IMG/VR virus record: IMGVR_UViG_3300046517_001014
Span: 1 to 31,817 of that record
Strand: one strand, 5' to 3'
Length of the DNA stretch: 31,817 bases
Origin: a virus
Shown: one piece after another, positions 5,847 to 31,817 of the stretch
Layout: each line of letters opens with the position of its first letter
Numbering within the stretch: the first letter of the stretch is position 1
Program-made: the position numbers and the translations under genes
Notes under the pieces: generated by a model
The model's database searches: none
What the model saw: the letters and a program-made list of their open reading frames with translations, nothing else
What the model was told of the DNA's origin: nothing

Positions 5847-5852
5847 AATCTC

Positions 5853-6431: not shown

Positions 6432-6455
6432 AACGGCACACGCTAGCTGTTCGGT

Positions 6456-6549
6456 CGCCGCCTGAGCGGCGTCCTAGCTGTACCCCGGCCTCGGCCGGCC
6501 CCGTTGGCGGCATCCGGCCGCACATTTTCAATCGCCGCTCTCCGCGGCG
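6456..6549 (+). promoter_or_regulatory. hairpin-rich leader or terminator region
   Basis: Three GC-rich inverted repeats occur in the 163-bp gap before the next gene: CGCCGC-CTGA-GCGGCG (6456-6471), CCGGCC-TC-GGCCGG (6485-6498) and CGCCGC-TCTCC-GCGGCG (6533-6549). The third ends exactly at the GGAAGG ribosome binding site (about 6551-6556). The first and third share the same stem sequences, so they could exchange partners. This layout suits termination followed by an attenuator-like leader, but the function is not shown. Confidence 0.4.
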
Positions 6550-6563
6550 GGAAGGTTACGATC

Positions 6564-8476: not shown

Positions 8477-8499
8477 CGTGTCCTGCTTTCGGTGGGTGG

Positions 8500-10478: not shown

Positions 10479-10816
10479 GCCTCGGGCCCTCCGTCACGGA
10501 GGTCGATCGTCGTCACGGCGGCCGTGACGATCTTCAGGCGGGCGCGCCGCTGCCGGACGTTCTCGATGTTGATCACGAGCGACCCGGCAGCGCTCGCGGC
10601 CGGCCCGGTGAACGTGAGCCCGCTGTCTTTCCAGATCCACGCGTCGCCGGGGATGGTGACCGCGGCGCGCTCGAAGCTGCTCAGCTCGACGGTGATCGTG
10701 GCCGAGCTCGTCGCGTCCAGCCACGCGAGCTGGGCGCCGATCCAGCCGTCGCGGATCGGAAGCTCGACGTAGAGCGTGGTGGTGGTCGGGATGGTTCCGT
10801 GGAACAAGCTGCTCAT
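10475..10816 (-). CDS. small virion-associated hypothetical protein, 113 aa
   Basis: ATG 10816 overlaps the upstream stop, and its own stop overlaps the SGNH gene start (ATGA). The sequence is beta-rich (TTTTLYVELPIRDGWIG, ATITVELSSFER, LTFTGPAAS, SLVINIENVRQRRARLKIV). The pattern resembles a small jelly-roll or beta-sandwich, such as a tail tip or adaptor for the esterase. No family is recognised, and the virion role is inferred from its position. Confidence 0.65.
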   Translation of the reverse strand: MSSLFHGTIPTTTTLYVELPIRDGWIGAQLAWLDATSSATITVELSSFERAAVTIPGDAWIWKDSGLTFTGPAASAAGSLVINIENVRQRRARLKIVTAAVTTIDLRDGGPEA

Positions 10817-15800: not shown

Positions 15801-16195
15801 TACTCGCCCCCCATGTCGCCGGAGGATCCGCCGCCGGCGTCCCGGTCCGGGTGATAGCCGTACTCGGAAGGCGTCATCGGCGCGCGCGGCGTGAAGTCGC
15901 CTGCGGATTCCGATGCGGCGTCGGCCACGGCTGCGTCGCGGCGCTGCTGCGCGATCCGCGGCTGCTGCCGGATGCTCGAGGGCGTCGGGACTGACCCGGC
16001 GACCGCGGCGCCCTGCGCACCATATCGCAGCGCGTACCACTGGCCGCGGGCATCGGACCCGGCAGCCGGCCTCGCGACCGACTGCCACAGCTGGAACTCG
16101 CGCTCCTGCTCCGGCGATAACCTCGCCGCCGGCGCTTGCTGCTGCGATGCCTGCGCCTGCACGGCGCCCCACTCCGGCGGTGGCCAGATCGGCAC
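15800..16195 (-). CDS. hypothetical protein, 131 aa
   Basis: GTG 16195 directly follows the TAG of the upstream gene, so ribosomes can carry over. The sequence is Gln-, Ala- and Pro-rich, with an early PIWPPPEWG, an acidic helix (SPEQEREFQLWQSVARP) and a disordered Gly/Asp tail. No known domain is seen. It sits between the S74 protein and the proline-rich virion protein and is likely a minor virion or assembly component. Confidence 0.55.
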   Translation of the reverse strand: MPIWPPPEWGAVQAQASQQQAPAARLSPEQEREFQLWQSVARPAAGSDARGQWYALRYGAQGAAVAGSVPTPSSIRQQPRIAQQRRDAAVADAASESAGDFTPRAPMTPSEYGYHPDRDAGGGSSGDMGGE

Positions 16196-17122
16196 CTAGA
16201 CGACCTTGCTTTCGATCAGCTTGAGCCGCTTGTGTAGCGCCGCGATCATGGCGGTGTTCGCCGTCGAGAGATGGCCGCTGTCGACCATCTTGCCGCCCGG
16301 CGTGTCGACCACCGCGTGCGCCATGCCGCCGCGCTCGAGGTCCTGCGCCATGACGCCCGTGCGCTTGCCCGCGCCGAGCTTGTCCTCGTCCTTGTAGCGG
16401 TAGGAATACGATTTCAGCGCGTCGAGCATCTTGTTCGCGTCGTCGTCGCCTTCCTTCACGTCCGTCTTGAGCCGACGGTCGCTGAAGATGGCGCCGAGCC
16501 CGCCGACGATCGCGTTGCCGTACTTGTCGATGTTCGACTTCTCCGGCGCGCCCGCGTTCTGCGCGCCGTAGCCCTGCAGCGCCTGCCCACGCGCGCCCTG
16601 ACTGGCCTGCAGCGCCTGCGCGCCGTAGCCCTGCAGCGCGCCCGTATACTGCGTCTGCGCCTGGTTTCGCTCGGCGAGTCCGGCGACCGCCTGCTGCCCG
16701 GCGAGCCCCGCGTCCTGCCTGCCCGACTGGATCGCTGCGGTCCGCGCCGCGGAGGCAGCGTTCTGCGGCGCGGCGCCGGCCGCCATCGACTGCTGCGTTG
16801 CCTGGTTCCGTAGCATCGCCTGGCGCAGCTGCTCGGCGCTGACGGAGTTCTGGCCGTTCGCCTGCTGCTGCAGGGCCAGCATGTTGTTCTTTTGCTGGCC
16901 CTGGTTGTAGTTGAACTCCTGATTCTGCTGATCGGCAGTTCCGCCGGCGGCCGCGGCCTGCTGATAGAGGAGATCCTTCCGCTGCGCTTCCGCTGCGGCG
17001 CCCGGATCCTTCTGGAGGTTGCCGCCGATATCCCACCACGGCGCATTGGAGTTGTCGGCATCGCCGCCCAGCGGCTCGAACAGCCGTTGAGCGGTGTCAC
17101 CCCAGGAGTTCCAGAAGGCCAT
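16196..17122 (-). CDS. Gln/Ala-rich virion protein with C-terminal S74 self-cleaving chaperone domain
   Basis: A 308-residue protein. Residues 1-200 are Gln-, Ala- and Asn-rich and helical, with an exact octapeptide repeat ALQGYGAQ at 162-169 and 181-188. From about 210 comes an intramolecular chaperone (peptidase S74) domain: IFSDRRLKTDV with Ser214 and, five residues on, Lys219, the spacing of the known Ser/Lys dyad; then LDALKSYSYRYK, TGVMAQDLE and a C-terminal coiled coil. In tail spikes this domain drives trimerisation and then cuts itself off just before the Ser. Here it is joined to a helical segment, not a beta-helix fibre. It starts at ATG with a weak GAGAG site. Confidence 0.8.
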   Translation of the reverse strand: MAFWNSWGDTAQRLFEPLGGDADNSNAPWWDIGGNLQKDPGAAAEAQRKDLLYQQAAAAGGTADQQNQEFNYNQGQQKNNMLALQQQANGQNSVSAEQLRQAMLRNQATQQSMAAGAAPQNAASAARTAAIQSGRQDAGLAGQQAVAGLAERNQAQTQYTGALQGYGAQALQASQGARGQALQGYGAQNAGAPEKSNIDKYGNAIVGGLGAIFSDRRLKTDVKEGDDDANKMLDALKSYSYRYKDEDKLGAGKRTGVMAQDLERGGMAHAVVDTPGGKMVDSGHLSTANTAMIAALHKRLKLIESKVV

Positions 17123-17125
17123 AAA

Positions 17126-20100
17126 TCACACTCTCTGCGCCGGCGGGAGGCGCATCAGGAGTCCTGGTTCGATGCCGACCTCGAGGCCGAGGCCGGTCAG
17201 CTTGAACGACTCGCCCAGCGGCGCGCCCCACGCCCCGCCCTGGGGCGAGAACACGACGGGGCTGTTCGAGACCATGCCGGCCACGTTGACGACCTTCGTC
17301 GGCGTCACGTCGGCGTCAAGGAGGCCGAGGAGCGTCGAGCCGGTGTCGATCGCGGTCTCGAGCTGCGCGACGGTCGGCACGCCAGTCACGAGCACGCCCA
17401 CCGTTCCGATCGACGGTGACCACGAGCCAGTGGAGGCGTCGTAGGCGAAGTGATCGCGCACATCGACCGAGCCTGCGCCGACCACGAAGGCCATGTTGAG
17501 GACGATGAGGTTGCCTGCCTCGCCGACCGCCATCGCGCGGAAGATCGCAGTCCAGGTGGTGCCCGACGTGAGCACGCGATGCACGAAGTGCGTCGTGTCG
17601 AGGTCGGCCGTCGACGTCGAGCGCACCGCCGTGAGCCGGACCTTGATCGCCTGGCAGATCGGTCGCTTCGGGCCGTGTTGGACCTGTAGCGGACCGCCGA
17701 CGACCGTAGGACTCGGCGTCCACGCTTCGTCGTCGACGTACGTCGGGCCGCCGGCGTCCTGCTGGTAGTTGTAGGCCACACGCACGCGCAGGAGATGGTC
17801 ACCGCGGTACTCGCCGAGCACCTGTAGCTTGCGACAGCGCGTGGCCGCCTGCAGATCGGCAAGCTTGATCCATGCCGTCTCGACGTCGGGCCCGTAGTCG
17901 ACCCCCGTGTACGTCGTCAGCTGCGTGCGCGTTCCGGTCGCGGTCAGGTAGACCTGCGCGCCGCCGTACATGCAGGAGTGCACACCGTCGGAGATCGTCC
18001 ACTCCCCCCACTGCCCACCGGGGAAGTCGGGACGCGGATAGGCCCACATGATCATCCGCGACGCCGTCAAGATGCGGACCTGGTGTTGCGCTTCGAGGAC
18101 ATCGATCGAGAGCACGTCCTCGTCGTCGAAATCGGACACCGCGCCGCCGACATAGGTCAGGTTGCCGCCGTGATCGAGGAGCTGCCAGCCCTTGTCGCTC
18201 TTGAACAGCGTGCCGAGCGGCGTCAACGCCTGTGCATCATGCGATGTCACACCGACGTCCGCAGAAACGATGCGCGCGAGCGTGTAGTTCTGGCCCTGTC
18301 CGAGGTTGTCGAGCCCGACTCCGGCGAACGCGTAGAGCGCGGTCTCGCGGCCGACGTACACGGTCTCGTCCTGGACGAACACCGTCGTCATCCGGCCGCC
18401 GTCGCGCGGCACGTCGAACGGCAGCGAATCGTGGAAGGCGGCGACCTCGCCGGCGCCGCGAAGCTTCGACGGCCACACGCGATCCGGGTCACCGGCAACC
18501 CCGCCCAGAAACAGCCGCACATCGGTCGCCGCGATGATCGACGCGCCGGGCGGCGCGAGGTTCTCGAGCACAGCGCCGTTCTCGGGGTTCTCCTCCTTCG
18601 TCCCAAGTACGGCGTCCGCCATCTCATCACGCCATGCGACCGCGGGCTCGAACGCGGCGGTCGAGTCGTTCGGGATGAACTTGTTGGGATTCGTCGTGTT
18701 GTTCGGGTCCGAGCTCGTCGCGAGGAAGTACCCAGTCTCGTCGGTCGGGTTGACCTCCGTCCTCCACACTTCGGCCGCGATCGCGCCCGTGGCGGTCGTC
18801 TTGTGGGTCGCGTTGAGCGGCGCGAGCGTGCCCATCGCGAAGCCTGCCGGACCGCCCGACATCGTGGCCTTGCCGATCGTCGCCGTCGTGGAGCGGTCCA
18901 CATCGCCCTTGCCGTTGGGCCACCGCCACGTGACCTTGTACCCGTAGGTGCCGTTGGCCACGGAGCCGGTCCCGCTCTTGAGCATGTCGTAGGACCACGG
19001 GTAGAAGTGGAACCCGACCTCGACGAGCCGCGTGCCGTCGTACTGCAGGATCTCGCCGGCGGCGATGTAGAGCGTTGCTCCGATGCGCGCCACCCGGCGA
19101 GCCTCGTTCGAGTCGAACGTGAACGAGATGTCACGCGGCGAGCGGGCCGCGTATCCGGTACTGCCGCCGCCGACCGCGATCCTGCGCTTCGCCGTACCCA
19201 TCCACGAATACGTGGTCGAGCCGGACGTGAGCGCCACCCCCGGCAGGAGCCCGTTGTTGGGGCGCAGTCCGCCGCCGACCGCATAGGCCGCCTTCGCGCA
19301 AAAGAACGCGTCGTCGCGGTACAGGAGATAGGCATTCTGCGCTTGGGTCACGTTGGCGAGTGCGACGTCGCCCTGGAACTCGGAGTTCTGCCCGAACTCC
19401 ATCCACAGATAGACCGACCCGTTGTAGTCGAACGCCCGCGAGGCTGGCGCCAGTCCGTTGGTGAGCGTCGCCTGCGTCCCGAGCGTCCCCGCGCTGTCAA
19501 CGAAGTTGAATTTGGTCGCGAACAATGACCCGAACGACGCGGACTGCTGCGCTGACCAAAATACGTAACAGCGAAATGCGCCGCCGTTCTGCACCGAGCG
19601 ATGCGCAGCGGCGATCTGGTTCACCGGCGTACCCGCCGCCGTCCCGATCGCCTGGCCCGTGGTCACGTCGGCGAGCGTCGAAGTCGTGAGGAAGTCGCCT
19701 TGAATGTTAGATCCATTCGCGCGCACCACCTGGGTCTTGGTGCCGTCGGGGATCGTCGAGACAGCGAGCGGTCCATCCGCGGTCCGCGCCTTGGTGACTT
19801 GCGTGATCACGAGCGCCGGTGTCACCGTGAACACCTCGTAGCTCGTGGTCGTCACGCGTCGGGCAACACCGACGCACAGATCCTGCGATCCGACCTTCAC
19901 GACATCGTAGAAGGAGTTGAACGTCCCGCCTGCCAGGATCGTCGCAGTCGGCATTGAGCTGAGGTTTATCGCTGCCGGGTTGGCGGCGAGTACCACCAGC
20001 GCGGTCACGGACTGCACGAAGATCAGGATCCTTGTGGCGAGCGCGACGACGCGGGGGCGAGTGACCGTGATGAGTCCGGCGCCGAGCGATACCGGACCCT

Positions 20101-20566
20101 GGAGTACCGATCCTGTCGTCTTGTCGACGGCCGCAAGGAGAACGTCCGTGCCCTCGGCCCACGCGTAAATGATCACGCCCGAGAGCTCGGCGCGGTCACC
20201 GTCGAGCTGGTCCCCGGCTCGCGAGAACACCGGGGTCTCATCGACCTTCACCGCGAGGTGTGTTCCGCGCAGCACCCAGGCGGACAGCTGCGCGTTCCAG
20301 CTGTAGACGCTGTCCTTCGTGAACAGGACGAGCTCGCTGCCATTCCGCACGATCCGTCGCGCGTTCGCGATCGTGCCGCCGCCGAAGATCGCGCCCGCCG
20401 GCGTCCCGAACGGGAATCGCGGCTGCAGGCCACCGATCTCATCGAACTGGACATCACGGCAGATGTCGAGGAACGGCTCGGGGCGCGCGCGGTCGTCGGT
20501 GCGCTGCTGCAGCCCGGCCGCGAGCGGCAGGTTCCTGAGGGTCCACTGCAGGCCGTTGTGAGCCAT
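17126..20566 (-). CDS. very large tail nozzle-like virion protein, 1146 aa
   Basis: This is the longest gene in the window. The sequence is beta-rich throughout with blade-like repeats (RRIVRNGSELVLFTKDSVYSW; TVYVGRETALYAFAG; LFKSDKGWQLLDHGGNL), consistent with the propeller-type tail nozzle of podoviruses (gp12-like tubular protein B). The N-terminus begins with a short TLRNLPLAAGLQQRTDD and the C-terminus ends SFKLTGLGLEVGIEPG. It follows the putative adaptor genes, as the nozzle does in T7-like and related phages. No enzyme motif is seen. Assignment by size, order and beta pattern is reasonable, but a fused receptor-binding part is possible. Confidence 0.65.
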   Translation of the reverse strand: MAHNGLQWTLRNLPLAAGLQQRTDDRARPEPFLDICRDVQFDEIGGLQPRFPFGTPAGAIFGGGTIANARRIVRNGSELVLFTKDSVYSWNAQLSAWVLRGTHLAVKVDETPVFSRAGDQLDGDRAELSGVIIYAWAEGTDVLLAAVDKTTGSVLQGPVSLGAGLITVTRPRVVALATRILIFVQSVTALVVLAANPAAINLSSMPTATILAGGTFNSFYDVVKVGSQDLCVGVARRVTTTSYEVFTVTPALVITQVTKARTADGPLAVSTIPDGTKTQVVRANGSNIQGDFLTTSTLADVTTGQAIGTAAGTPVNQIAAAHRSVQNGGAFRCYVFWSAQQSASFGSLFATKFNFVDSAGTLGTQATLTNGLAPASRAFDYNGSVYLWMEFGQNSEFQGDVALANVTQAQNAYLLYRDDAFFCAKAAYAVGGGLRPNNGLLPGVALTSGSTTYSWMGTAKRRIAVGGGSTGYAARSPRDISFTFDSNEARRVARIGATLYIAAGEILQYDGTRLVEVGFHFYPWSYDMLKSGTGSVANGTYGYKVTWRWPNGKGDVDRSTTATIGKATMSGGPAGFAMGTLAPLNATHKTTATGAIAAEVWRTEVNPTDETGYFLATSSDPNNTTNPNKFIPNDSTAAFEPAVAWRDEMADAVLGTKEENPENGAVLENLAPPGASIIAATDVRLFLGGVAGDPDRVWPSKLRGAGEVAAFHDSLPFDVPRDGGRMTTVFVQDETVYVGRETALYAFAGVGLDNLGQGQNYTLARIVSADVGVTSHDAQALTPLGTLFKSDKGWQLLDHGGNLTYVGGAVSDFDDEDVLSIDVLEAQHQVRILTASRMIMWAYPRPDFPGGQWGEWTISDGVHSCMYGGAQVYLTATGTRTQLTTYTGVDYGPDVETAWIKLADLQAATRCRKLQVLGEYRGDHLLRVRVAYNYQQDAGGPTYVDDEAWTPSPTVVGGPLQVQHGPKRPICQAIKVRLTAVRSTSTADLDTTHFVHRVLTSGTTWTAIFRAMAVGEAGNLIVLNMAFVVGAGSVDVRDHFAYDASTGSWSPSIGTVGVLVTGVPTVAQLETAIDTGSTLLGLLDADVTPTKVVNVAGMVSNSPVVFSPQGGAWGAPLGESFKLTGLGLEVGIEPGLLMRLPPAQRV

Positions 20567-20883
20567 CAGAATACCGTCACGTCGACGGTGATGTCGGCGC
20601 CGAACCCGCTGGCGCTCAGCACGATCACCTGGTCGCTCCGGGACACCTCGCCCAACAGCCCCGCCGATGCGGCGCCGCGCGGCGGCGAGGCGATCACCAT
20701 CGAGGGCACGCGGCCGAGGCGGTGCGCCTTGGTCACCGTCCCGTTGTCCGGGATCACGACGTTGCGGATCGCGCGCGCGTCGGCCGCCGGCGCCGTCTGG
20801 AGCTCGCGGATCGCGTCGGCATGCGACTTCCGCACGCGCTCGGCAGCATCGTCCGCGAGCCGAAGGTCCGCGACCTGCCTCAC
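20566..20883 (-). CDS. small virion-associated protein, 105 aa
   Basis: The start is GTG 20883 in a GTGA overlap with the adaptor-like gene; the longer open frame upstream is its shadow. The first half is helical (VADLRLADDAAERVRKSHAD), the second beta-rich with a turn-rich VIPDNGTVTKAHRL and an ADITVDVTVF end. No family is recognised. The position between the adaptor and nozzle genes suggests a connector or tail-completion role. It overlaps the nozzle gene by ATGA. Confidence 0.6.
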   Translation of the reverse strand: MRQVADLRLADDAAERVRKSHADAIRELQTAPAADARAIRNVVIPDNGTVTKAHRLGRVPSMVIASPPRGAASAGLLGEVSRSDQVIVLSASGFGADITVDVTVF

Positions 20884-21575
20884 CGGTACCTCCAGCTCGC
20901 CGGATTCCAGATCCCGTTGATGTCCGACCGCCGGCCGAGCCCGCGCACGATCTGCCGCTTGGGCATCGTCAGCGAGCGCTGCACCGCCCATTCCTTGAGC
21001 CGCTTGAACGCGGCGGTGCTCTCGTCGATCGCTCGCTGCTGCATCGACTCGCTGCGATGGAGGGCGACCGAGGCGACGCCCCAGCCGATCGCCTCGAGCC
21101 CATCGCTGGTCACGACATCGATCGACGTGGAATCGGCCGACGTGTTGTAGCGCGTCGGCTGGGGGACGTAGACGTGCTTGTATGTCCCGGTCGTCGGTGT
21201 CGGAAAGAGCTGCAGGGTGACCCCGGAGAGACACCACGCGCGCGCCTCGCTCCCGCTGATACCGAGCAGCACGTCGCGCTCCTGGATCATCAGCTCAGGG
21301 AGCTCGCGGCGTCGTCCCGCGCTGTCGATCACGAAGTCGACGCCGATCGTCGATCGGTGGTCGCTCGGCAGCGAGAGGTCCGCGAGGTTCACGCTCGCCG
21401 TGGTCTCGAAACATCGTGCCCCGGTGTCCGCGACCGTCGTGTGGAGCCGCCCGTAGAACGTCGAGACGTGCGCCTTCCACTCGGTGGGATCGATCTGATC
21501 GCCACCACCGGCGGTCGTGTTGGCGAGCTGCTGGCTGTACGTCACCAGCTCGCCGAGTGTCACCGGGAAGGGCAT
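20880..21575 (-). CDS. head-tail adaptor-like protein, 231 aa
   Basis: The sequence begins PFPVTLGELVTYSQQLANTT, a pattern I associate with podovirus adaptor or tail tubular A-type proteins. It continues with helices, a beta core (VTLQLFPTPTTGTYKHVYV) and a C-terminal helical bundle (LEAIGWGVASVALHRSES) ending in a basic tail. Its length is close to that of gp11-type adaptors. It lies downstream of portal and capsid and upstream of the nozzle, the expected order. AGGAG sits about 4 bp before ATG 21575. Confidence 0.6.
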   Translation of the reverse strand: MPFPVTLGELVTYSQQLANTTAGGGDQIDPTEWKAHVSTFYGRLHTTVADTGARCFETTASVNLADLSLPSDHRSTIGVDFVIDSAGRRRELPELMIQERDVLLGISGSEARAWCLSGVTLQLFPTPTTGTYKHVYVPQPTRYNTSADSTSIDVVTSDGLEAIGWGVASVALHRSESMQQRAIDESTAAFKRLKEWAVQRSLTMPKRQIVRGLGRRSDINGIWNPASWRYR

Positions 21576-21587
21576 TACGCTCCTGGC

Positions 21588-21971
21588 TCAGGGCCCGATC
21601 AGCCCGTCGGACAGAAAGACCACGGTGAACGTCAACCACTGCAGCGCCGCGAGGTCGACCAGGTTGTTGCTTGCATCGTAGATCGACACGCGCAGCTTCC
21701 TCGTCGACACGTTGTAGTCGCCGCACGTGAACGAGTAGCCCTTGACGTTCGCTGGCGTGGTCGCGTGGATCACGCCAGCCTTTGGGCCGACGAACGTGCC
21801 GGGCACCTCCTGGTTCGTGCTCCACGCGAGCTCGACGATGCCGGTGGAGATCCACGTGGTGGTGAGCCCCCTGCCGATCACCTTCGTGACGGCGGTGGTG
21901 CCGCCGACGAACTTCACGAGGAAATCGCGCTCGCTCGGCTCCGAGGTCAGGACCGGGTAGAAGTCACCCAT
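21588..21971 (-). CDS. virion-associated protein, 127 aa; source of the 71-bp repeat
   Basis: ATG 21971 has a strong GGAGGAGT just upstream. The protein is beta-rich: GDFYPVLTSEPSERDFLVKF, GRGLTTTWISTGIVELAW, VKGYSFTCGDYNVSTRKLRV and LQWLTFTVVFLSDG. It could be a small structural or decoration protein. Residues about 26-49 are encoded by the segment duplicated at 6361-6431. It starts 1 bp before the previous gene ends its stop region, so the two are closely coupled. No family is recognised. Confidence 0.65.
   Translation of the reverse strand: MGDFYPVLTSEPSERDFLVKFVGGTTAVTKVIGRGLTTTWISTGIVELAWSTNQEVPGTFVGPKAGVIHATTPANVKGYSFTCGDYNVSTRKLRVSIYDASNNLVDLAALQWLTFTVVFLSDGLIGP
21826..21896 (+). repeat. 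71-bp direct repeat, copy 2 (inside the intact virion gene)
   Basis: Partner of 6361-6431 with 69 of 71 bases identical; similarity stops abruptly on both sides. Here it lies entirely within the minus-strand coding sequence at 21588-21971, which makes this the likely parental copy. Confidence 0.9.
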
Positions 21972-21972
21972 C

Positions 21973-22725
21973 TCACTCCTCCGTCCAGCCCATGCGGACC
22001 TTGTACACGCCGGCCGCGGACTGCGACGGCGAGTACAGCGCGAGCAGGAACTGGTCGCTCGGGCCCAAGGTGACCGGCGGCAGCCCGACCACGTGGTGGG
22101 TGATCGTGCCGATCGCGCTCGCGCCGATCGACTCCGGCTCGGCGCCGAACACGAACATATATTTGTCACCAGCGATCGCGATCGACGGCCGGAACTGCCC
22201 GTGGCCGAGATAGCGGACGTTTGCCGACTCGACTCCGACCACGACGGCCCCGCCGGTGGACACGAGCACCGGCGTGGCCGAGGATTGCATGTTCGGGTTG
22301 ACCGTGGCCAGCAGCGTGCCGCCGGAGCTGATGCGGGTGGCGCCCGTGTCGAGCTCGGTCGCCCAGCTGTCCGCGGTGCCGTTCGCGCCGGCCGTGATCA
22401 CCTCGATCTCGATGAAGTCGAGTTCGCAGCGCACGAGATTCGTGCTGCCCGTCGAGTTGATCAGGTGAATGAACGCCTTGGTCATCGTCGCGTCGGCATC
22501 GACGAGCACCGGCGCCGCGTGGCCGGCGAGGGTCGTCGCGGCGTCGTTCGTCGCGTTGTGGGCCGCGAAGTAGGTCCCCTGGTTCGCGGCGGTCGTGCGC
22601 CACTTCCCGAGGGGTCGCGTGACGAGGTTGCCGTAGCGATCGGCACGAACAGGACCTCGCACGCCGTTCGCGATCGGACTCGGCAGTCCGCGGAGTGCCA
22701 GGCCATTGAAGTTGATATCAGACAT
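21973..22725 (-). CDS. putative capsid decoration or minor virion protein, 250 aa
   Basis: The start is ATG 22725 (SDINFNGLALRGLP); the open frame to 22893 is a shadow of the capsid gene. The protein is beta-rich and low in charge: TKAFIHLINSTGSTN, LDFIEIEVITAG, GGAVVVGVESANVRYLG, DKYMFVFGAEPES and a final GVYKVRMGWTEE. Its position directly after the major capsid gene, 73 bp away, suggests a head decoration or minor head protein. I recognise no named family. There is no clear Shine-Dalgarno; two small hairpins lie in the upstream gap. Confidence 0.6.
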   Translation of the reverse strand: MSDINFNGLALRGLPSPIANGVRGPVRADRYGNLVTRPLGKWRTTAANQGTYFAAHNATNDAATTLAGHAAPVLVDADATMTKAFIHLINSTGSTNLVRCELDFIEIEVITAGANGTADSWATELDTGATRISSGGTLLATVNPNMQSSATPVLVSTGGAVVVGVESANVRYLGHGQFRPSIAIAGDKYMFVFGAEPESIGASAIGTITHHVVGLPPVTLGPSDQFLLALYSPSQSAAGVYKVRMGWTEE

Positions 22726-22798
22726 CGTTCGGTCGTTTCTGCGGAGCGACTGCCCCGCTGTGGCAAAGCGTTTTGGTGTTGGCCAGTCCGGCTGGCGG

Positions 22799-24019
22799 CT
22801 AGGTGGTCGCGAGCGAAGCGACGCCCTGCGCGGAGGTGTCGTCCTGGATGAGGTTGCAGAACCCCTCGATGCGCCCCTCGACGCCGTTGTCATCGCTCTG
22901 GCGCAGCATCGGCAGCCCGTCGAGATCGATCACGTGCGGCAGGCCCTTCAGGTGCTTGATGTACTGCGAGCCTGAACGCGACACCCGCGTCTCGTTCATC
23001 GGGCAGTCCGGATCCGAGTACACCTTGAACGAGCCAGCGCTCGTGTGGATCATGATGTACTGGAATCCGTAGTTCGCCGTTCCGCCGCCGTCGTCGAACT
23101 CGACCTTGGCGTTGAGCCGCTGGGCCGCGTTGAAAAAGTGCGTCGGGTTCAGGAAGCCCTGATCGATGTTGTGGCTCTTGCCGACCTTCGAGATCTTGAT
23201 CGCGAGCCGGCCGAGCGCCACCTCCGCGTTGAGCGAGGTGTCGTCGAGCCGCGATCCGCCGAGCCGGTTCGGGTTCACGCCGCGGTCGATCCCACGGAAC
23301 GAGTCGACGCCGCGCACCGGAGCCGCAAGCGGCGTGCAGACCCGGAGCCCCTCCATGCAGGTGCCCGGGTCGCCATCGCGAAACAGGTAGTCGTTGACCT
23401 GGATCGATCCGGTGATGTCGGTGATGTCGTCGACCTCGACCTTGCCGCCATCCTCGTCGACGGCGATCACGAACGTCGTACCAGCTCGCGGCGACAGGCC
23501 AGTGACCGTGTCGTCCGCGATGAGGGTCATGTCCTCCTTGAAGTTCCGCGCGTCCTCGGGGTCGGTCAGCGTCAGCACGTTGCCGGTGATCGACGAGACG
23601 CGGCCGCGGAGCCCGGTGGTGTCGCGGTAGAAGTCGAACGCGTAGGAGTCACCGACTTCTTCGAGGACGCGATCGGTCTCCATCGTGACAAGATTGAAGA
23701 ACGCGGCCTTGTTGCCTTCGGCGGCGAGCGCGGCCTCACCGTCGATGGTGACGATGCCGAACTTCGGCGTGCGCAGCGCGCGCGGCTGCTTGCCCTTGCT
23801 GCCCTTGGCGTTCGCGCGCGCACGCGAGAACGTGCCGGACACGCCTTGGGGGTTGCCGTAGCGGATCGCGTAGAGGAAGGAGTCGCCGCCGAACCCGTCC
23901 TCCTTGGGCATCATTGCCCACCAGACGTGGTCTCGGAGGGTCAGATCGGCGATCTGGTGATCGGAATACTCGCGCTTGTAGATGAACGCGACGGTCGAAA
24001 GCGTACTGGCGGAGGACAT
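22799..24019 (-). CDS. major capsid protein (HK97-fold type)
   Basis: A 406-residue protein with features of an HK97-fold coat: an N-terminal arm (STVAFIYKREYSDHQIADL), then an E-loop-like region (GNPQGVSGTFSRARANAKGS). A long spine helix follows (ALAAEGNKAAFFNLVTMET). An inserted beta domain covers about residues 150-215 (ITGNVLTLTDPEDARNF to VNDYLFRDGDP). The P and A domains end with FKVYSDPDCPMNETRV, typical of phage coats, and LPMLRQSDDNGVEGR. It lies directly downstream of the scaffold gene, which settles the identity. GAGGAGA about 6 bp before the ATG is a strong site, as expected for the most abundant virion protein. Confidence 0.85.
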   Translation of the reverse strand: MSSASTLSTVAFIYKREYSDHQIADLTLRDHVWWAMMPKEDGFGGDSFLYAIRYGNPQGVSGTFSRARANAKGSKGKQPRALRTPKFGIVTIDGEAALAAEGNKAAFFNLVTMETDRVLEEVGDSYAFDFYRDTTGLRGRVSSITGNVLTLTDPEDARNFKEDMTLIADDTVTGLSPRAGTTFVIAVDEDGGKVEVDDITDITGSIQVNDYLFRDGDPGTCMEGLRVCTPLAAPVRGVDSFRGIDRGVNPNRLGGSRLDDTSLNAEVALGRLAIKISKVGKSHNIDQGFLNPTHFFNAAQRLNAKVEFDDGGGTANYGFQYIMIHTSAGSFKVYSDPDCPMNETRVSRSGSQYIKHLKGLPHVIDLDGLPMLRQSDDNGVEGRIEGFCNLIQDDTSAQGVASLATT

Positions 24020-24070
24020 GAGGGGTCTCCTCGTCCACCGCGGCGATCGTCAGAGCAGCGTGGAGCTCGC

Positions 24071-25270
24071 CTAGTCGAGCTTCCCGGTTTCGAGCGCGCG
24101 CAGGGTGTCCCGTCGGGATTCCTTGCGGGCTACGTCGCCGCTCTGCGCGGGCCGCGGCACACGTGATGTGCTGAGGTCATTGCTGAGCGTCCTTGCCGGG
24201 TGCTGCTTGTCGGCGGGCTTGTTGTTCGGCTTCGATGTCGTCGTGGAGGTCGGTCGCGGGATGCCCAGCTCGTCGAGCTCGGCGCCGCGAGATTCTTCGT
24301 AGCGGGCGATCACGTCCGCGGGATCGGGCGCGTCGCCGTCAAGCTCGGCGGTCATCGCGACCGTGAGCTCCCACAGCTTGGCGCGGAGCTTCGTGGCCAG
24401 CTTGGCCGCCTGTGCCTTGCCGGCCGCCGTACCTTCGGCTCGCGCCTTGTCGATCGCGGCGGTCGCGGCGCGCGCAATCGGCGCAGCCTCGGTGATCGCG
24501 TCGAGCGCGCTGTCGAGATACTGGCCCTGCAGTTCCTGAAACTGCGTTTGCTTGTCCTTCGCGGCAAGCTTGGCCTCGAGCGCATCGATCCGCTTCTGGG
24601 TCTCGTCGCCGCGATCGGCGAGCTCGCGCTCGCGCATGGCGCGCTCGGCCTGCTGCTTGCGCGCGGGGTCGGCGGCGCCGGCCTTGCTGTGTGCGTAGAG
24701 CGTCTGGGCGGCGGGCTCGAGGTCGTCGTCGCCGAACCCCAGCGCGCGGAAGGCGTCGACCAGGTGGACGCCGCCCTTGCGGGCCTTGGCCTGGAGCGCC
24801 TCGAAATGCTCGGCCTTCGCGACGCGCGGCGCCCACTCGGTCTCGATCGCCTTCGCGCGGGTCTCGAGCTCGGCGCGAGCCTTGGTGGCCTTTTCCCGCT
24901 GACGAGTCTCGGCGGCCTGGATCGTCGCGAGCCGCTTGGCGACGGCGGGATCCTCGGCTGCCGCGGCGGGATCCGGCGCGCGATGGCCATCGGGCTCCCC
25001 GCCGTCGCCGTCGCCTGGCACGTCGTCCGCCGGAGGTTCCTCGCGCGTCGCTGGCTTCACGTCCGGCTTGGCGCTGCGGTCCTGTGGCGGCACCGACGGC
25101 TTGGCGCCCGCGGGGTCGGCATGGCCGCCCTCGAGCATCCGCAGTGTGTCGCCGCGGCCGGCCTTCGCTCGCTGCTCGGCGATGACGCCGCGGTGCGGAG
25201 CGTTCAGCACCACCGCGCCGGGCACGTTCGCTGGATTCGCTGCGGGGACGGTCGGCGCGGGGTCGGCCAT
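24071..25270 (-). CDS. capsid scaffolding protein, 399 aa
   Basis: Highly charged and almost entirely helical, with a Pro/Asp/Gly-rich linker at about 50-105 and a long coiled coil at about 110-290 (RLATIQAAETRQREKATKAR; RKQQAERAMRERELADRG). This is the usual scaffold architecture, and the gene lies between portal and coat. A short motif is present near both ends: GRGDTLRMLEGG at about 38-49 and RRDTLRALETGKLD at the very C-terminus. In scaffolds the C-terminal basic helix binds coat. The copy near the N-terminus is unusual. No protease domain is visible, so the scaffold may be removed by exit or by a host enzyme. Confidence 0.8.
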   Translation of the reverse strand: MADPAPTVPAANPANVPGAVVLNAPHRGVIAEQRAKAGRGDTLRMLEGGHADPAGAKPSVPPQDRSAKPDVKPATREEPPADDVPGDGDGGEPDGHRAPDPAAAAEDPAVAKRLATIQAAETRQREKATKARAELETRAKAIETEWAPRVAKAEHFEALQAKARKGGVHLVDAFRALGFGDDDLEPAAQTLYAHSKAGAADPARKQQAERAMRERELADRGDETQKRIDALEAKLAAKDKQTQFQELQGQYLDSALDAITEAAPIARAATAAIDKARAEGTAAGKAQAAKLATKLRAKLWELTVAMTAELDGDAPDPADVIARYEESRGAELDELGIPRPTSTTTSKPNNKPADKQHPARTLSNDLSTSRVPRPAQSGDVARKESRRDTLRALETGKLD

Positions 25271-25342
25271 TCCCCATGAGAAATAGCACCCGGCGCGCGG
25301 TGTGCGCCAGCGTCAACCTTTGGGCGGCTGTCCGGCGGCCGG
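25271..25342 (-). other. intergenic gap with hairpin between scaffold and portal
   Basis: The 72-bp gap holds a GGCGC / GCGCC inverted repeat with a 7-base loop (near 25292-25308), plus GC-rich self-complementary sequence close to the portal stop. It may slow transcription or process the mRNA between portal and scaffold, whose dosage differs. There is no T-run. Confidence 0.3.
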
Positions 25343-27220
25343 TCAGCCGGCGCGCAGCATCATCGCCTGCGGCGAGAGCGCAGCCTCGGGCTGCGTCGGC
25401 ATCGGCGAGGTCCCGGCGCCCGGTGGCAGCGCAGCAGATCCCGGGGGCCCGGCGCCGGCGTTCTGGTTCGCGGCGGCGCCGGCGAGCATGTGCGCGGCGA
25501 GCACCGTGTACTGGCGCAGCGCCTCCAGGATCTCTTCTGGCGCCCCGAGGTCGCGATCGCGGAGGTAGGCCATCTGGCCCATACGGGCCATGAGCTGCAG
25601 GTTGCCGAACGGCTCGGGGACCACGGTGTGCCCGTCCTCGATCGCCTCGAGGTCGCGCTCGACCGACTCCATGCCCTGCGTGTAGAGCGATAGGATGTGG
25701 TCGAGATCGGGGTGCTTGGTGAGCCGGCGCCATTCGTCGGTGGTGATCACGCCGGCCTGCGCCCATTCGAGCGCGGTCTGGTAGCGACCCGCCGGCGTAC
25801 GGCCAAGCGTCGACGCCGCGGCGATCTGCACCTTCACGTCGCCCATGTCGACGTCGCCCCACTTGATCTTGCGCGCGCCGAACTTCGCCTTGCGCGTGAC
25901 CACCGGGGCGTCCGCGCCAAGATCCTTGCAGCAATCGAGGATGTGGACGAACACCTCGAGCACGAACGACTCGAAGTCCTTTTCCTGCGGCGCGAATCGC
26001 TGCGTGGTCTGGTCGCGGTACTCGCGCATCCCGACGGCCGAATCGATGCCGGCCGGCTTCGCCGCCTGCGCGGCCATGCGCGAGACGCCGCTCTCCTCGA
26101 AGGCCGAGCCCTTGAGCGTCTCGCGGTTCTGGTAGACCTCGGGGCTGTTCGCCTGCGGTGTGATCGTGAGCGGACGTTCGCCCTTCACCACGCAGACGGT
26201 GCCGATCCGGTTGATCGACTGGATCGCGAGGTTCGCGTCCGCCATGTCCACGTACGTCACCGGGACGGCGTAGTGGTCGAGGTTCATGTCGATCTGCCAG
26301 TTGCGCTTGTTCAGCGCGCGCTGGATTCCGGCGATGCGCTCGGCGAGCGAGATGCCGTACCAGCCGGCCTCGCGCTCCGACCACACCATGCACGCGAACG
26401 GGAACTCGTCCTTGTGCCACTCCTCGTCGAGGAGATCGCAGCCATCGATCGTGATCGTGTGGCGCCCGGCGCGGTAGCCGTCGTAGCCGAAACGTCCGAT
26501 CGGCATCTTCCAGCTCTCGATCGCCACGAGGCTGTCGTCATCGATCGGCCGGTAGCCCGCCCACATTCGCGACCACCCGCGCCCGGTCTGCGCGCGATCG
26601 ATCTCGTCGGTGTACTCGGGGAAGCGCGCCTTGAGCTCCTCGCGGTCGACGTTCGTCATCCGCTGGTGCATCTGGCGCGGCGTGCCGCCGTTCCTGCATT
26701 CCGCTTCGTCGACAACAATATCGTCGACGCGCACGTGCTCGACCTTCACCTCGTCCCAGCTGTTCGTGTAGACCTTGATGAGGCCGGTGCCCTTCTTGGC
26801 TGCCGCCTTGAACGCGCGCCTGCACGCCTTCGCGACGCCGAGCAGCTTGCCGAGGCCCTCCGCGTACCACTCGAGCCGCGTCGCCGTGCGCTGCACCGAC
26901 CAGTCGCCGTCGTCGGTCATGAACCGCGGCCGCACGTCGGTCGCGGCGATCGCCGCCGTCACCGTGTCGACGTTGGATGCGATCACGTTCTCGATGACGA
27001 GCCCGATGCCCTCGGCATCGCCGTCATCGATCATGGCGTCGGGTGAGTTCGCGCAGTTCGGATCGTAGAGGTGCTCGAGCTGCACGAAGCGATTGAACAG
27101 TAGGAACTGATCGCGCTCGATCCGGTCGACGTACGGGAACACCACCTTGTGGACCTGGCCCTCGTCCGCGTTCCACCACCGGCGCTTGTCGGGCGGCGGA
27201 GCCTGGCGCCGTGTCCTCAC
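25343..27220 (-). CDS. portal protein, 625 aa
   Basis: The length and sequence fit a podovirus-type portal that forms the dodecameric DNA channel and the seat of the terminase. Recognisable parts include the N-terminal VFPYVDRIERDQFLLFNRFV, a wing region (LEWYAEGLGKLLGVAKACRRAFKAAAKKGTG...), and the stem and clip area around NKRNWQIDMNLDHYAVPVTYVD. A crown helix follows with SRMAAQAAKPAGIDSAVGMRE and TQRFAPQEKDFESF. The C-terminal tail is Ala/Gly/Pro-rich and disordered. Start is GTG 27220 in a GTGA overlap. Order terminase, portal, scaffold, coat supports it. Confidence 0.85.
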   Translation of the reverse strand: MRTRRQAPPPDKRRWWNADEGQVHKVVFPYVDRIERDQFLLFNRFVQLEHLYDPNCANSPDAMIDDGDAEGIGLVIENVIASNVDTVTAAIAATDVRPRFMTDDGDWSVQRTATRLEWYAEGLGKLLGVAKACRRAFKAAAKKGTGLIKVYTNSWDEVKVEHVRVDDIVVDEAECRNGGTPRQMHQRMTNVDREELKARFPEYTDEIDRAQTGRGWSRMWAGYRPIDDDSLVAIESWKMPIGRFGYDGYRAGRHTITIDGCDLLDEEWHKDEFPFACMVWSEREAGWYGISLAERIAGIQRALNKRNWQIDMNLDHYAVPVTYVDMADANLAIQSINRIGTVCVVKGERPLTITPQANSPEVYQNRETLKGSAFEESGVSRMAAQAAKPAGIDSAVGMREYRDQTTQRFAPQEKDFESFVLEVFVHILDCCKDLGADAPVVTRKAKFGARKIKWGDVDMGDVKVQIAAASTLGRTPAGRYQTALEWAQAGVITTDEWRRLTKHPDLDHILSLYTQGMESVERDLEAIEDGHTVVPEPFGNLQLMARMGQMAYLRDRDLGAPEEILEALRQYTVLAAHMLAGAAANQNAGAGPPGSAALPPGAGTSPMPTQPEAALSPQAMMLRAG

Positions 27221-27570
27221 GATACCGCCTTGATCTCGTACACGTGGGCGACCTGCCCGGTGTTCCCTGACACCGCGGTGCCGAGGAAGGTCAGCGCGTA
27301 GCCGTCGGGCGCGCCGAGCTGCTTGCCGGTGGGTACCACGACGAACCGCCGGTTGCGCTTGGGCCCGTTCGGCGTGGTCTCAACGAACAGCGTGAGCACC
27401 TCATCGAACTGCGCTTGTCCGCGCGCGACGACCAGGCGCTGCTCGAGGCAGTACGCGACCGAGCGCACCACGCCGGGATCGTTGATCTGGAACTGGATCT
27501 CGTACTGATCCTCGGGGAGGCGCAGCGGCAGCGCGCCGATCAGAAACGACTTCGAGGAGCGCTCGCTCAC
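27217..27570 (-). CDS. hypothetical protein between terminase and portal, 117 aa
   Basis: A beta-rich small protein: LPLRLPEDQYEIQFQINDPG, VARGQAQFDEVLTLFVETT, NRRFVVVPTGKQLG and a last VAHVYEIKAV strand. No domain is recognised. ATGA or GTGA overlaps on both sides make it an obligatory part of the packaging operon. A minor virion or packaging accessory role is inferred from position only. Confidence 0.6.
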   Translation of the reverse strand: MSERSSKSFLIGALPLRLPEDQYEIQFQINDPGVVRSVAYCLEQRLVVARGQAQFDEVLTLFVETTPNGPKRNRRFVVVPTGKQLGAPDGYALTFLGTAVSGNTGQVAHVYEIKAVS

Positions 27571-27827
27571 CGCGGCTCGTCCTCGCGCGTGAACCCGGGC
27601 ACCTTGCCGCCGGGATACGTCGATGCGTCACGGAGCGGATCGGTGTGCTGCTTGGCAATCGCCGCCGGCTTGGTGGGCGCGTCGGGCTTCGGGGCCGGCG
27701 CCTGCAGGGTGGCGGACATCTCGCCGATGGACAGCGACGTCACGCCCACGGCGATCAGCGCCGGCGCTCGCGTGATCAGGAGGTCGATCAGCGCGGCGGC
27801 ATCAGTGGATCTCGCCGGGATCGGCAT
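27567..27827 (-). CDS. small hypothetical protein, 86 aa
   Basis: ATG 27827 overlaps the terminase stop (ATGA). The N-terminal half is hydrophobic and helical (AAALIDLLITRAPALIAVGV), possibly amphipathic or one weak membrane segment. The second half is a Pro/Ala/Lys-rich linker. No family is recognised. The long open frame upstream of this start is only a shadow of the terminase gene. Confidence 0.55.
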   Translation of the reverse strand: MPIPARSTDAAALIDLLITRAPALIAVGVTSLSIGEMSATLQAPAPKPDAPTKPAAIAKQHTDPLRDASTYPGGKVPGFTREDEPR

Positions 27828-28864
27828 CAGCGCTTTCCAAGATGCCCGATCTTGCTCCCGCGCAACAGCGCGTTGAACTCGCCGCGCGGCTTCGAGCCCA
27901 CGGGCGCATCTCCCCATGGATCCCGCTTCGGGGGCGGCTTCTTCGTCGATTTCTTGCCCTTCGCGACGCCGCCGGCGACCTTCGATCCGGCGGGCAGATC
28001 CCCCTCGTCTTCCGGCGGCGCTGAACTGCCCGAGAACATCGACCCGAGCTCGGTGCGGATGTACGTGGCTGAGTCCGCGCTGTGGTTCGCGACCGACTTG
28101 TCCTCCTTGGGCTGGTCGTACTCGTCGGGCTTCCACTGCAGCGTGCTCAGCTGGTCCTCGAGCGGCGAGCCGGCCAGCACGAGCATCCGGGCATCGGTCA
28201 GGTCGCCGTTCACCACCTCGATCGCGCCCGGCTTGCCCTTCTTGTTCGCCGCCTTGAACTTGATCCCGTAGACCTCCGCGAGCTCGTCGAGCACCGTCTC
28301 GCCGAGCCCGGCGAGGTCCGCCACCGCGGCGACCGGCCAGCCGGTGATCCCGAACAGGCCGCCGGGTTCGTCGTAGACCTCGCCGCGCATCGCCGCGGCC
28401 ACCGCCTCGGGCCCGATCAGGAGCTCGGCGATCAGCTTGGGGTACATCCGCCGGCGCTCGAACGAGAACACGTGGAAGAACCGGCGCAGCGGATCGGAGG
28501 GCGCGAGCGCGAAGATCGTCAGGGCGAACGGGTCGCGCGATCCCAGATCGGCGCCGTAGCCGAACAGCCACTCCTCGAAGTCGGGCAACGCGGCGACCGC
28601 GGCCTCGAGCATCGGCAGCCCCTCGAGCTTGCGGTCGCCGTACGGCGCCCACCGGTTGAACAGCTTTCCGTGCTCGTCGTGCGCCTGGTAGGCGTACATC
28701 GCCGTCGTGTGATCCGAGGCCCAGAGCCCGAGGTACTCGCGCAGCCAGATCGGATTTTGATCGCTCCATTTCTGGCGCAGTTTCTCGACGAGCGCCGCTT
28801 CCCAGTTGAGGATCAGCGCCGGGTAGCGCGCCGCCGCGTCGGGCAGCGCGAGCACGTCGAGCAT
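27827..28864 (-). CDS. terL: terminase large subunit, nuclease part (after in-frame stop)
   Basis: This half carries the RNase-H-like nuclease that cuts the packaged DNA. Asp106 lies in GYGADLGSRDPFALTIFAL, Asp183 in VADLAGLGETVLDELAEVYG, and a final acidic residue, probably Asp264, in HSADSATYI. Before it, WSDQNPIWLREYLGLWASD is the conserved linker to the ATPase. The segment is in the same frame as the ATPase half, separated by one TAA and 20 sense codons, whose translation (RLRDEPDFVDWIGWSSHAWS) also looks like terminase. ATG 28864 lacks a good ribosome site. The tail is basic and disordered. Read through, the full protein would be about 585 residues. Confidence 0.85.
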   Translation of the reverse strand: MLDVLALPDAAARYPALILNWEAALVEKLRQKWSDQNPIWLREYLGLWASDHTTAMYAYQAHDEHGKLFNRWAPYGDRKLEGLPMLEAAVAALPDFEEWLFGYGADLGSRDPFALTIFALAPSDPLRRFFHVFSFERRRMYPKLIAELLIGPEAVAAAMRGEVYDEPGGLFGITGWPVAAVADLAGLGETVLDELAEVYGIKFKAANKKGKPGAIEVVNGDLTDARMLVLAGSPLEDQLSTLQWKPDEYDQPKEDKSVANHSADSATYIRTELGSMFSGSSAPPEDEGDLPAGSKVAGGVAKGKKSTKKPPPKRDPWGDAPVGSKPRGEFNALLRGSKIGHLGKR

Positions 28865-28924
28865 CGACCAGGCGTGCGAGCTCCAGCCGATCCAGTCGAC
28901 GAAGTCGGGCTCGTCGCGGAGCCG

Positions 28925-29584
28925 TTAGAGCCGGTGCATCTCGCCGCCCTTGCGGGTGACATCGTAGAACCGTCCGCGCAGAACGTGACCCGGCGTGCCG
29001 GCGAGCACGATGCAACCGCGACGCTCGCCGAGCCGGGGCCCGACGGCGCGATCGAGGAACATCTCGAGCAGCGCCATGTCGTGCGACGCCGTTTCGTCGA
29101 CCTGCACCTCATTGAACGGCTGGCCGCGGTACCGGTTGACCTGTTTCTTGTCGTCAATCCCAGCGAGCTGGTAGGTCGCGCCGGTGCGCCTGCAGGTGCA
29201 CCGCAGCCGGCTCTCATTGAAGGAGAACTCGTCGCGCAGGCCGAGCTGGTCGACCAGCTCCTTGAGCGGCTCCCAGTTGAGGCGCTCGGCCTCGGGCCGC
29301 GAGGTCGCCGCGTAGATGATCCGCGCGCGCGGGATGAACACCATCTTGATCAGCGCGCGGACCCGCAGCACGGTCGTCTTGCCGCCGCCGCGGCCGACCA
29401 GGATCGAGATGCGCAGCGCCTCGTCGAGCGCGGCATCGAGCTGCGAGGGGTGGCAGTCATCGAGGAGCCGCTGCCGGACGTCGTTGGCCCAGGCGTGATC
29501 GATGTCCATCGCGGCGCGGTCGCGCGCGGCTGCCTTCTTCCGGCTGTGCGGCTTGGCGCGACCCGCGGCGCGCCGCTTCGCCAT
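28925..29584 (-). CDS. terL: terminase large subunit, ATPase part (ends at in-frame TAA)
   Basis: The 219-residue half holds the packaging motor ATPase. Walker A is LVGRGGGKTT with Lys69, Walker B is NEVQVDE with Asp163 and Glu164, and the coupling motif is LAGTPG at about 194-199. The N-terminus is a basic tail followed by HPSQLDAALDEALRISIL, the normal start of the motor domain. The protein ends ...GGEMHRL at TAA 28927-28925, just where terminases pass from motor to nuclease. The frame stays open beyond it to the end of the nuclease part. Either a nonsense mutation, a sequence error, or a recoded stop is present. GAGGAG lies 3 bp before ATG. Confidence 0.85.
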   Translation of the reverse strand: MAKRRAAGRAKPHSRKKAAARDRAAMDIDHAWANDVRQRLLDDCHPSQLDAALDEALRISILVGRGGGKTTVLRVRALIKMVFIPRARIIYAATSRPEAERLNWEPLKELVDQLGLRDEFSFNESRLRCTCRRTGATYQLAGIDDKKQVNRYRGQPFNEVQVDETASHDMALLEMFLDRAVGPRLGERRGCIVLAGTPGHVLRGRFYDVTRKGGEMHRL

Positions 29585-29591
29585 CAGCTCC

Positions 29592-29993
29592 TCAGGCCGG
29601 GCGCCACGTCTTGACCGCGGTCCGCTCGACGATGTCGTACTCGACCGTGTGCCGCGACGGGTCGATGAACGTGATCAGGAACGCGCCGAGCTCGCGAACC
29701 AACTCGATGCGGTGCTCTCGGCCGTTGCTCTGCTTGTTCGCCGTCAGCACCTCGCCGCTCTGCTGCCCGCGGACCTGGAACGATTTGTCGATGAAGCGCA
29801 TGAAGGCGACCGGCATCCCCGGCCCCACATCCGGTCGTGTCTCCGCGGCGATCTCCTCGAGCGCCCTGGGCGGGGGCGGGGCGGGGGCCGGCGGGCGCTC
29901 GCCATCGCCGCCGTCCTGGTTGGCGGTGGCTACCATCGCGGCAGCGTTCGTGCGCTGCCGCGCCTTGATCGCGTCCTTCTGTTTCTGGTTCAT
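29592..29993 (-). CDS. hypothetical protein upstream of terminase, 133 aa
   Basis: ATG 29993 has a good AAAGGAA site 7 bp upstream. The N-terminus is basic and helical (NQKQKDAIKARQRTNAAAMV), followed by a Pro-rich linker (PPAPAPPPPRALEE) and a beta-rich C-terminal domain (DKSFQVRGQQSGEVL; HRIELVRELGAFLITFID). The build resembles small phage terminase-adjacent or minor head proteins. A terminase small subunit role is possible but nothing specific proves it. It ends 7 bp before the terminase start. Confidence 0.6.
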   Translation of the reverse strand: MNQKQKDAIKARQRTNAAAMVATANQDGGDGERPPAPAPPPPRALEEIAAETRPDVGPGMPVAFMRFIDKSFQVRGQQSGEVLTANKQSNGREHRIELVRELGAFLITFIDPSRHTVEYDIVERTAVKTWRPA

Positions 29994-30490
29994 CGGCGGT
30001 TCCTTTCGCGGCGGTCGGCCTTGGGGAAGCGTCCGAGCAGCGGACGCCACCGGGCCATCGGGATCTTGCGCTCGAGCTGGCGAGCCATCGGTGTCGAACA
30101 AACGTAGTTGAACGGGGCGGCGGGGTCGACGCCGATCGCAGCGAACAGCCCCCGACCGATCCCGGCGCCGGGCCACAGCCGACCCCGACCGCCGCGCCGA
30201 TAGTGCTCCTTGGCGAACACGTAGTAGACCAGCGGCGGCGACTCCGCCGTGTCTGCGGTGACGAATCCGAGCAGGTCGGCGACGCCGTCTGCGCTACCTG
30301 GCACCGTGGCGACCACCGTGCGGACGTCGGGCCGGCGCAGCACCTTCTCGATCTGCGGGATCATGATCGAGTACCAGTCGTCGACCTGGATCAGCCCGGC
30401 CGTGTAGGCATCGCGGTACGAGCCGACCCAGGCGTCCACGATGAACAGGTGATCGGCGGGCGCGGCTGGGCGGTAGACGATCGCGGTCAC
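29990..30490 (-). CDS. GNAT-like acetyltransferase, 166 aa
   Basis: The start is GTG 30490 in a GTGA overlap. The protein has the order of the GNAT fold: an initial strand (AIVYRPAAPADHLFIVDAW), a helix, central strands (VRTVVATVPG; LLGFVTADTAESPPLVYYVF) and then KEHYRRGGRGRLWPGAGIGRGLF, which fills the place of the acetyl-CoA-binding loop and helix. Phages of several groups carry such a gene next to terminase, and its substrate is not known to me. The C-terminus is unusually basic. It may be a structural relative lacking activity, because the usual R-G-x-G/A turn is irregular. Confidence 0.6.
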   Translation of the reverse strand: MTAIVYRPAAPADHLFIVDAWVGSYRDAYTAGLIQVDDWYSIMIPQIEKVLRRPDVRTVVATVPGSADGVADLLGFVTADTAESPPLVYYVFAKEHYRRGGRGRLWPGAGIGRGLFAAIGVDPAAPFNYVCSTPMARQLERKIPMARWRPLLGRFPKADRRERNRR

Positions 30491-30744
30491 TCGGTCACCC
30501 GCTCGATCCGCGCGCAGCTTGCGACGACATGCAGCGCACCGGTGACCTCGAGCCAGGCGCTGGGCCTGCCGTCCTCGTGGTCCGGCGTGGCCTTTGGGAT
30601 GTAGACCGTGAGCACCGGCGCCCGGATGTCGACCGCGGCCACCGCGAGCTCCCAGTGATCGGTAGCGACACACCACACGAGCGGCGCGGCGCCGTGGCGG
30701 TTGAAGTAGACACGGAAGCGACCGATCGCAATCGGCGGCGTCAT
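30487..30744 (-). CDS. small hypothetical protein, 85 aa
   Basis: ATG 30744 overlaps the upstream stop and its stop overlaps the GNAT-like gene. The sequence is strand-rich (IGRFRVYFNRHGAAPLVWCV; AAVDIRAPVLTVYIPKA; LEVTGALHVVASCARIERV), consistent with a compact beta fold. No family is recognised. Confidence 0.6.
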   Translation of the reverse strand: MTPPIAIGRFRVYFNRHGAAPLVWCVATDHWELAVAAVDIRAPVLTVYIPKATPDHEDGRPSAWLEVTGALHVVASCARIERVTE

Positions 30745-31115
30745 GACAGCAACGCCTTCACGCGCTTGTGCCGGCGCTCCTCCTTGAGCTTCTTGCGCTG
30801 CTTCCGGAACTCGTTCTTGCGGCCCTCGGCCAGCATCCGCGTGTCCATCGTCTCGGGGTGTGGCTTCGCGGCCGACTTTCCGTGCGATGCGGTGACGACG
30901 AACTGCGTGTGGACCGGCGGGCAGGAGATGCGCCAGGGCGACCACTCGCCGCAGTAGAGCGTGACGCTGATCCACTTCATGCACTTCGCCTCGACCGGCG
31001 GATCTCCGGCGCCGTCACGTTCGACCGTCGCCTCGAAGCGTCCGTGAACCGGACACTCGTAGTCGGCGGTCATCAGCGCGCCGGGTGAGGTGCGGACCTT
31101 GATCGTCCAGGTCAC
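30741..31115 (-). CDS. zinc-ribbon-like protein with basic tail, 124 aa
   Basis: The N-terminal part, ADYECPVHGRFEATVERDG, matches the first knuckle of FmdB-type or phage zinc ribbons. Later Cys residues in AKCMKWI, LYCGEWS and ISCPP could complete one or two metal sites. The last 35 residues (MLAEGRKNEFRKQRKKLKEERRHKR) form a very basic helix suited to nucleic acid binding. The start is GTG 31115 in a GTGA overlap. The target is unknown. Confidence 0.6.
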   Translation of the reverse strand: MTWTIKVRTSPGALMTADYECPVHGRFEATVERDGAGDPPVEAKCMKWISVTLYCGEWSPWRISCPPVHTQFVVTASHGKSAAKPHPETMDTRMLAEGRKNEFRKQRKKLKEERRHKRVKALLS

Positions 31116-31414
31116 GCAACATCCTCGCCGGTGAACTCGGTGAACCCGATCTTGTTCTCTGCGATGTCGCGACCGAGGTAGACGCGTACGGCACCGTGCG
31201 CGAAGTGCAGCGTGATGAACTCCGCGCGCGTCATGTCGGGCAGGCGCTCGCCGAGTTCGATCCTCGCCTGGAGGCGCCGGGCGATCCCGTCGAAGCCTTG
31301 GACGCCGACGCGGTACGACATCGGCGGGGCCTTCAATGACCGGACGCGCCCGACGTAGTGGGCGCGAATCCGTTCCTCTTCGGTGATCGACAGGTCGTTG
31401 TTGAGGTCATTCAT
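31112..31414 (-). CDS. hypothetical protein, 100 aa
   Basis: The protein is acidic at the N-terminus (NDLNNDLSITEEERIRAHYV) and then alternates helix and strand (GIARRLQARIELGERLPDM; TRAEFITLHFAHGAVRVYLG). No known domain is seen. It is coupled by ATGA and GTGA overlaps to its neighbours in the first part of the late operon. Confidence 0.6.
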   Translation of the reverse strand: MNDLNNDLSITEEERIRAHYVGRVRSLKAPPMSYRVGVQGFDGIARRLQARIELGERLPDMTRAEFITLHFAHGAVRVYLGRDIAENKIGFTEFTGEDVA

Positions 31415-31770
31415 CCGAGAACGCTCCTTCGCTCCTTGGAATCGATGGCCGCGACGTCGCGCAGGAGCCTCGCGCGGTACTCGGCGGTCTGCTGCCGGAT
31501 CCAGATCATGACGACGGCGGGCGTGAGCTTGCGCAGCTCGGCCGCCTCCGCCTTCCGCTGCTCGGCGGCGACCGATGCGGCCCGCTGGGCGAGCCAGGCG
31601 ATGCGCGACGCCGCGTCGTGACCCTTCGGCTTGATCTTGCCGGCTCGGATGCCTCGGATCTCGGCAAGGATCGCCGTGAGGGCCTCGCCGAAGATGCTAG
31701 CAGCGAGATCCGACGTCGGATCGATCGGATCGGCGACGATCGCTCGCGGTTCTGTGCGCTTCGTTGGCAT
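31411..31770 (-). CDS. first gene of late operon, possible terminase small subunit, 119 aa
   Basis: The protein is almost all helical: an N-terminal basic tail, ASIFGEALTAILAEIRGI, a long helix ASRIAWLAQRAASVAAEQRKAE, and TPAVVMIWIRQQTAEYRARL. Small helical proteins at the head of a packaging operon are often terminase small subunits, and the size fits. I do not see a definite HTH, so this is only a suggestion. AGGA lies just before ATG 31770. The upstream 47 bp to the window edge are AT-rich. Confidence 0.6.
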   Translation of the reverse strand: MPTKRTEPRAIVADPIDPTSDLAASIFGEALTAILAEIRGIRAGKIKPKGHDAASRIAWLAQRAASVAAEQRKAEAAELRKLTPAVVMIWIRQQTAEYRARLLRDVAAIDSKERRSVLG

Positions 31771-31817
31771 GTTCCTGTCTATTTAGGTGTTTTGGGTGAT
31801 GAAAACGCGTCTATGCC
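31771..31817 (-). promoter_or_regulatory. possible late promoter region, cut by the window edge
   Basis: This short stretch is clearly more AT-rich than the rest. On the minus strand it holds TAAATA (31785-31780), 9 bp before the ATG, which could be a -10 box; no convincing -35 is seen. If used, the late mRNA would have an extremely short leader. It may instead need a phage activator. Confidence 0.3.

Follow-up and report, generated by a model that had tools for sequence, protein, structure and literature searches.

A single-base in-frame stop in a phage terminase gene, absent from a near-identical assembly, is most likely a base error

The large terminase subunits (TerL) of phages (PHROG 2; Pfam Terminase_3), of which those of P74-26, Sf6 (gp2), D6E, and T4 (gp17) have solved structures, share a set of ATPase motifs and acidic residues in the nuclease part. 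Stop codons inside phage genes are also known: in phAss-1, 41 ORFs contain TAG, suppressor tRNAs are encoded, and the recoded residues lie where Gln is conserved (PMC10607447). We analyzed the IMG/VR record IMGVR_UViG_3300046517_001014 over its whole stretch of 31,817 nucleotides (hereafter, the window), in which a terminase large subunit gene is interrupted by an in-frame TAA. The protein resembles phage TerL in the ATPase motifs and the presumed nuclease acidic residues, and also in its uninterrupted length of 585 residues and the fold of the ATPase part; it differs in that, in this record alone, a single base at codon 220 breaks the frame. As in phAss-1, a stop lies inside TerL and the frame beyond it is open and conserved; in contrast to phAss-1, a single TAA is involved, a search revealed no tRNA gene, and no relative carries the stop.

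Terminase frame and position of the stop codon

The whole terminase frame runs on the minus strand from 29584 to 27827 and comprises 585 codons. Reading starts with an ATG and proceeds for 219 amino acids (5' part, 28928..29584, minus strand, holding the ATPase core) up to the TAA at codon 220, which occupies 28925..28927. Beyond the TAA, the frame is open as far as a TGA at 27829-27827; this 3' part (27827..28924, minus strand), 365 amino acids followed by the TGA, probably encodes the end of the ATPase domain and the nuclease domain. The stop is followed by 20 codons, RLRDEPDFVDWIGWSSHAWS, before an ATG is reached at 28864; these codons can be aligned to the terminase relatives. By eye, no sequence resembling a ribosome site was found directly 5' of ATG 28864, and a start there would drop a conserved segment including WSSH. 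The initial annotation had described this arrangement of the frame, the stop, the 20 sense codons, and the ATG with no good ribosome site, and we found it correct.

All of the ATPase motifs lie upstream of the stop: Walker A (GRGGGKT, residues 64-70), Walker B (EVQVDE, 159-164), and the coupling motif (LAGTPG, 194-199), each of which is kept across the terminase relatives. Downstream are D346, D423, and D504, the presumed nuclease acidic residues, which are invariant in the 10 relatives compared. Thus, the earlier statement that both halves hold their full active-site motifs stands for the ATPase motifs and presumptively for the nuclease residues. That the stop separates the ATPase from the nuclease was imprecise. 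Codon 220 is about 20 residues past LAGTPG and about 125 residues ahead of the first nuclease motif, and the ATPase domain chains of P74-26 are about 250 residues long; hence, the stop most likely falls before the end of the ATPase domain, in its C-terminal part, and thus short of the ATPase-nuclease junction. Accordingly, splitting the chain at this position would not yield two cleanly separated domains.

The identity of the protein was examined by profile, fold, and sequence searches. The joined frame matched PHROG 2 (terminase large subunit) with an E-value of 3.7e-15 over residues 45-508, and the 5' part by itself matched the same family at 8e-10. When a model of the intact protein from a second assembly of the same phage (the twin, described below) was used for a fold search, the top match was the ATPase domain of the P74-26 terminase (5.2e-8). 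The nuclease part of this model was of low confidence, and the fold search is therefore informative for the ATPase part only; for the nuclease part, the assignment rests on the three invariant aspartates and the PHROG 2 match extending to residue 508. A sequence search of the PDB gave only weak helicase matches, and a search of deposited phages gave no match.

Comparison with a second assembly and with wider relatives

IMG/VR also contains this phage in metagenome 3300047319, where two contigs jointly span the whole window, and only seven of the 31,817 bases differ between the window and these contigs. One of them, IMGVR_UViG_3300047319_000976 (10,099 bases), aligns end to end with window positions 21719-31817, and its sole mismatch is base 28925. 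The other, IMGVR_UViG_3300047319_000837 (31,756 bases), covers positions 1-21845; it is identical to the window across 8325-21845 and shows six mismatches to 1-8489, all in the first 54 bases. All six belong to a tandem array of a 12-nt unit, GGGGCCAGCTCN, which occupies 1-281 and within which the window's contig starts; the array lies in the plus-strand frame 2-961, where it encodes four-residue units. Misassembly is common where contigs end in tandem arrays. When this contig-end array is set aside, the sequences differ at base 28925 alone over approximately 31.7 kb. On the coding strand, the third base of codon 220 is A in the window record instead of C in the twin, so that codon 220 of the twin is TAC (Tyr), and its terminase frame runs through all 585 codons without interruption.

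Some features of the two assemblies were observed besides. A 74-nt direct repeat is present at 6358-6431 and 21823-21896, with the copies 96% identical and separated by 15.5 kb; it is at this repeat that the twin assembly breaks into its two contigs, which overlap by 127 nt (21719-21845), and the window is continuous there. The window and the twin contig both stop at base 31817, which suggests that the genome physically ends there or that the two assemblies share a junction. At the other side, the 31,756-base twin contig carries the phage 9,911 bases past the left end of the window (its positions 1-9911).

We then compared the terminase with 10 relatives, of which nine, the twin among them, come from IMG/VR contigs and one from a contig of an Actinomycetota MAG. 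The nine relatives other than the twin have 43-74% identity to it. At codon 220, Tyr was present in nine of the 10 (twin included) and Phe in the remaining one; none of the 10 has an internal stop, and all relatives found encode a single-chain terminase. Conservation of the protein extends to either side of codon 220, and substitutions among close relatives favor third codon positions in both parts, which indicates that both are under selection as protein. Several candidates in this comparison were rejected. The stop in one relative (L015) was its natural C-terminal TAG, that reported for another (L003) was the terminal TGA of the gene itself, and a sequence retrieved with a degenerate DNA pattern (L008) was an unrelated chance match.

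As for the rest of the phage, an exonuclease VIII-like gene (2189-3169, plus strand) and an integrase-like gene (4042-5220, plus strand) were observed, from which the phage is probably temperate. The large frames of the structural region that were tested (7182-25270, minus strand), including those of 1146, 1292, and 782 amino acids, had no PHROG match at a threshold of 0.001. Among the structural-region frames tested, only that at 7182-8510 (minus strand) gave a match in Pfam, a weak one to CHAP. The phage belongs to a group poorly represented in reference libraries.

Base error, private mutation, and recoding

The initial annotation left three readings of the TAA: readthrough, a two-chain terminase, and a nonsense mutation or an error in the sequence. 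It proposed that the codon be compared in relatives, where a sense codon would indicate error or mutation and a conserved TAA would support recoding. The comparison returned a sense codon throughout, TAC in the twin and Tyr or Phe codons in the nine others, so that only the last of these readings was borne out. The TAA is private to this record. This points to a sequence error, or to a mutation confined to this record, rather than to unusual biology.

If the TAA were decoded as an amino acid by programmed or suppressor-driven readthrough, a full-length terminase would be made, and the open and conserved frame on either side of the stop is in keeping with this. However, the TAA is missing even from a copy that is otherwise identical over approximately 31.7 kb, and a stop at codon 220 occurs in no relative. 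In known recoding phages, many genes contain the stop and suppressor tRNAs are encoded (PMC10607447). An ARAGORN search of the window, the additional 9.9 kb of the twin, and the contigs of the two nearest relatives detected neither suppressor tRNA genes nor any others; this gives weaker support against readthrough and is not decisive alone. Some recoding phages lack a suppressor tRNA gene. No recognized gene interrupted by another TAA was found in the window, and the few other TAAs that have an open frame on both sides are as expected at 70% G+C. TAA ends none of the 16 other minus-strand frames checked; we rejected this as a hint of reassignment, since a window of 70% G+C holds few TAA triplets. 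Readthrough thus appears extremely improbable. The same applies to a terminase made as separate ATPase and nuclease proteins, the second starting at ATG 28864. Each part does keep active-site motifs of its own, but the chain is single in all relatives, including the intact twin, the break most likely falls within the ATPase domain, and the internal ATG would be without a ribosome site and would forfeit 20 conserved residues. Even taken jointly, recoding and a two-chain terminase are highly unlikely.

A private nonsense mutation, in which some or all phage or prophage copies in the sample carry the stop, is a credible though less probable explanation. It would yield a truncated protein of 219 residues lacking the nuclease, and packaging would fail unless an intact copy complemented it. 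In an assembly, it would give the same single-base pattern as an error, and the integrase-like gene hints at a temperate lifestyle, under which a phage with a dead terminase could last a while as a prophage. Against this, such a mutation would be counter-selected in a replicating phage, no other decayed gene is known here, and there is otherwise no difference from the intact twin outside the terminal array. That the TAA is real and marks a packaging-defective strain, a prophage or helper-dependent phage that lost its terminase very recently and is otherwise identical to an intact strain, is less likely than not.

The difference itself is a single base, shared neither by the near-identical copy nor by any of the relatives found; that it reflects an error rather than a real mutation is what we infer. 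A C-to-A error on the coding strand (G-to-T on the other), arising in the reads or in the assembly consensus, would turn the Tyr codon TAC into TAA. Changes of this type have been reported to result from 8-oxoguanine (PMC6337315). Since 3.3% of all single-base changes in the terminase gene create a stop, one stray base would be a sufficient cause. The one change in approximately 31.7 kb outside the contig-end repeat falls in a gene needed by a tailed phage, and an interruption in a hallmark gene readily draws a reader's notice. Taken together, these findings suggest that the terminase gene of this phage is probably ordinary and uninterrupted, with Tyr at codon 220, and that the stop in the record is most likely a base error of sequencing or assembly.

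The stop consequently carries little biological weight, and the record should not serve as an instance of terminase splitting or recoding. It instead illustrates cleanly how a single unsupported base in a metagenomic contig can mimic recoding, and how a near-identical contig of a separate assembly is enough to settle the recoding question.
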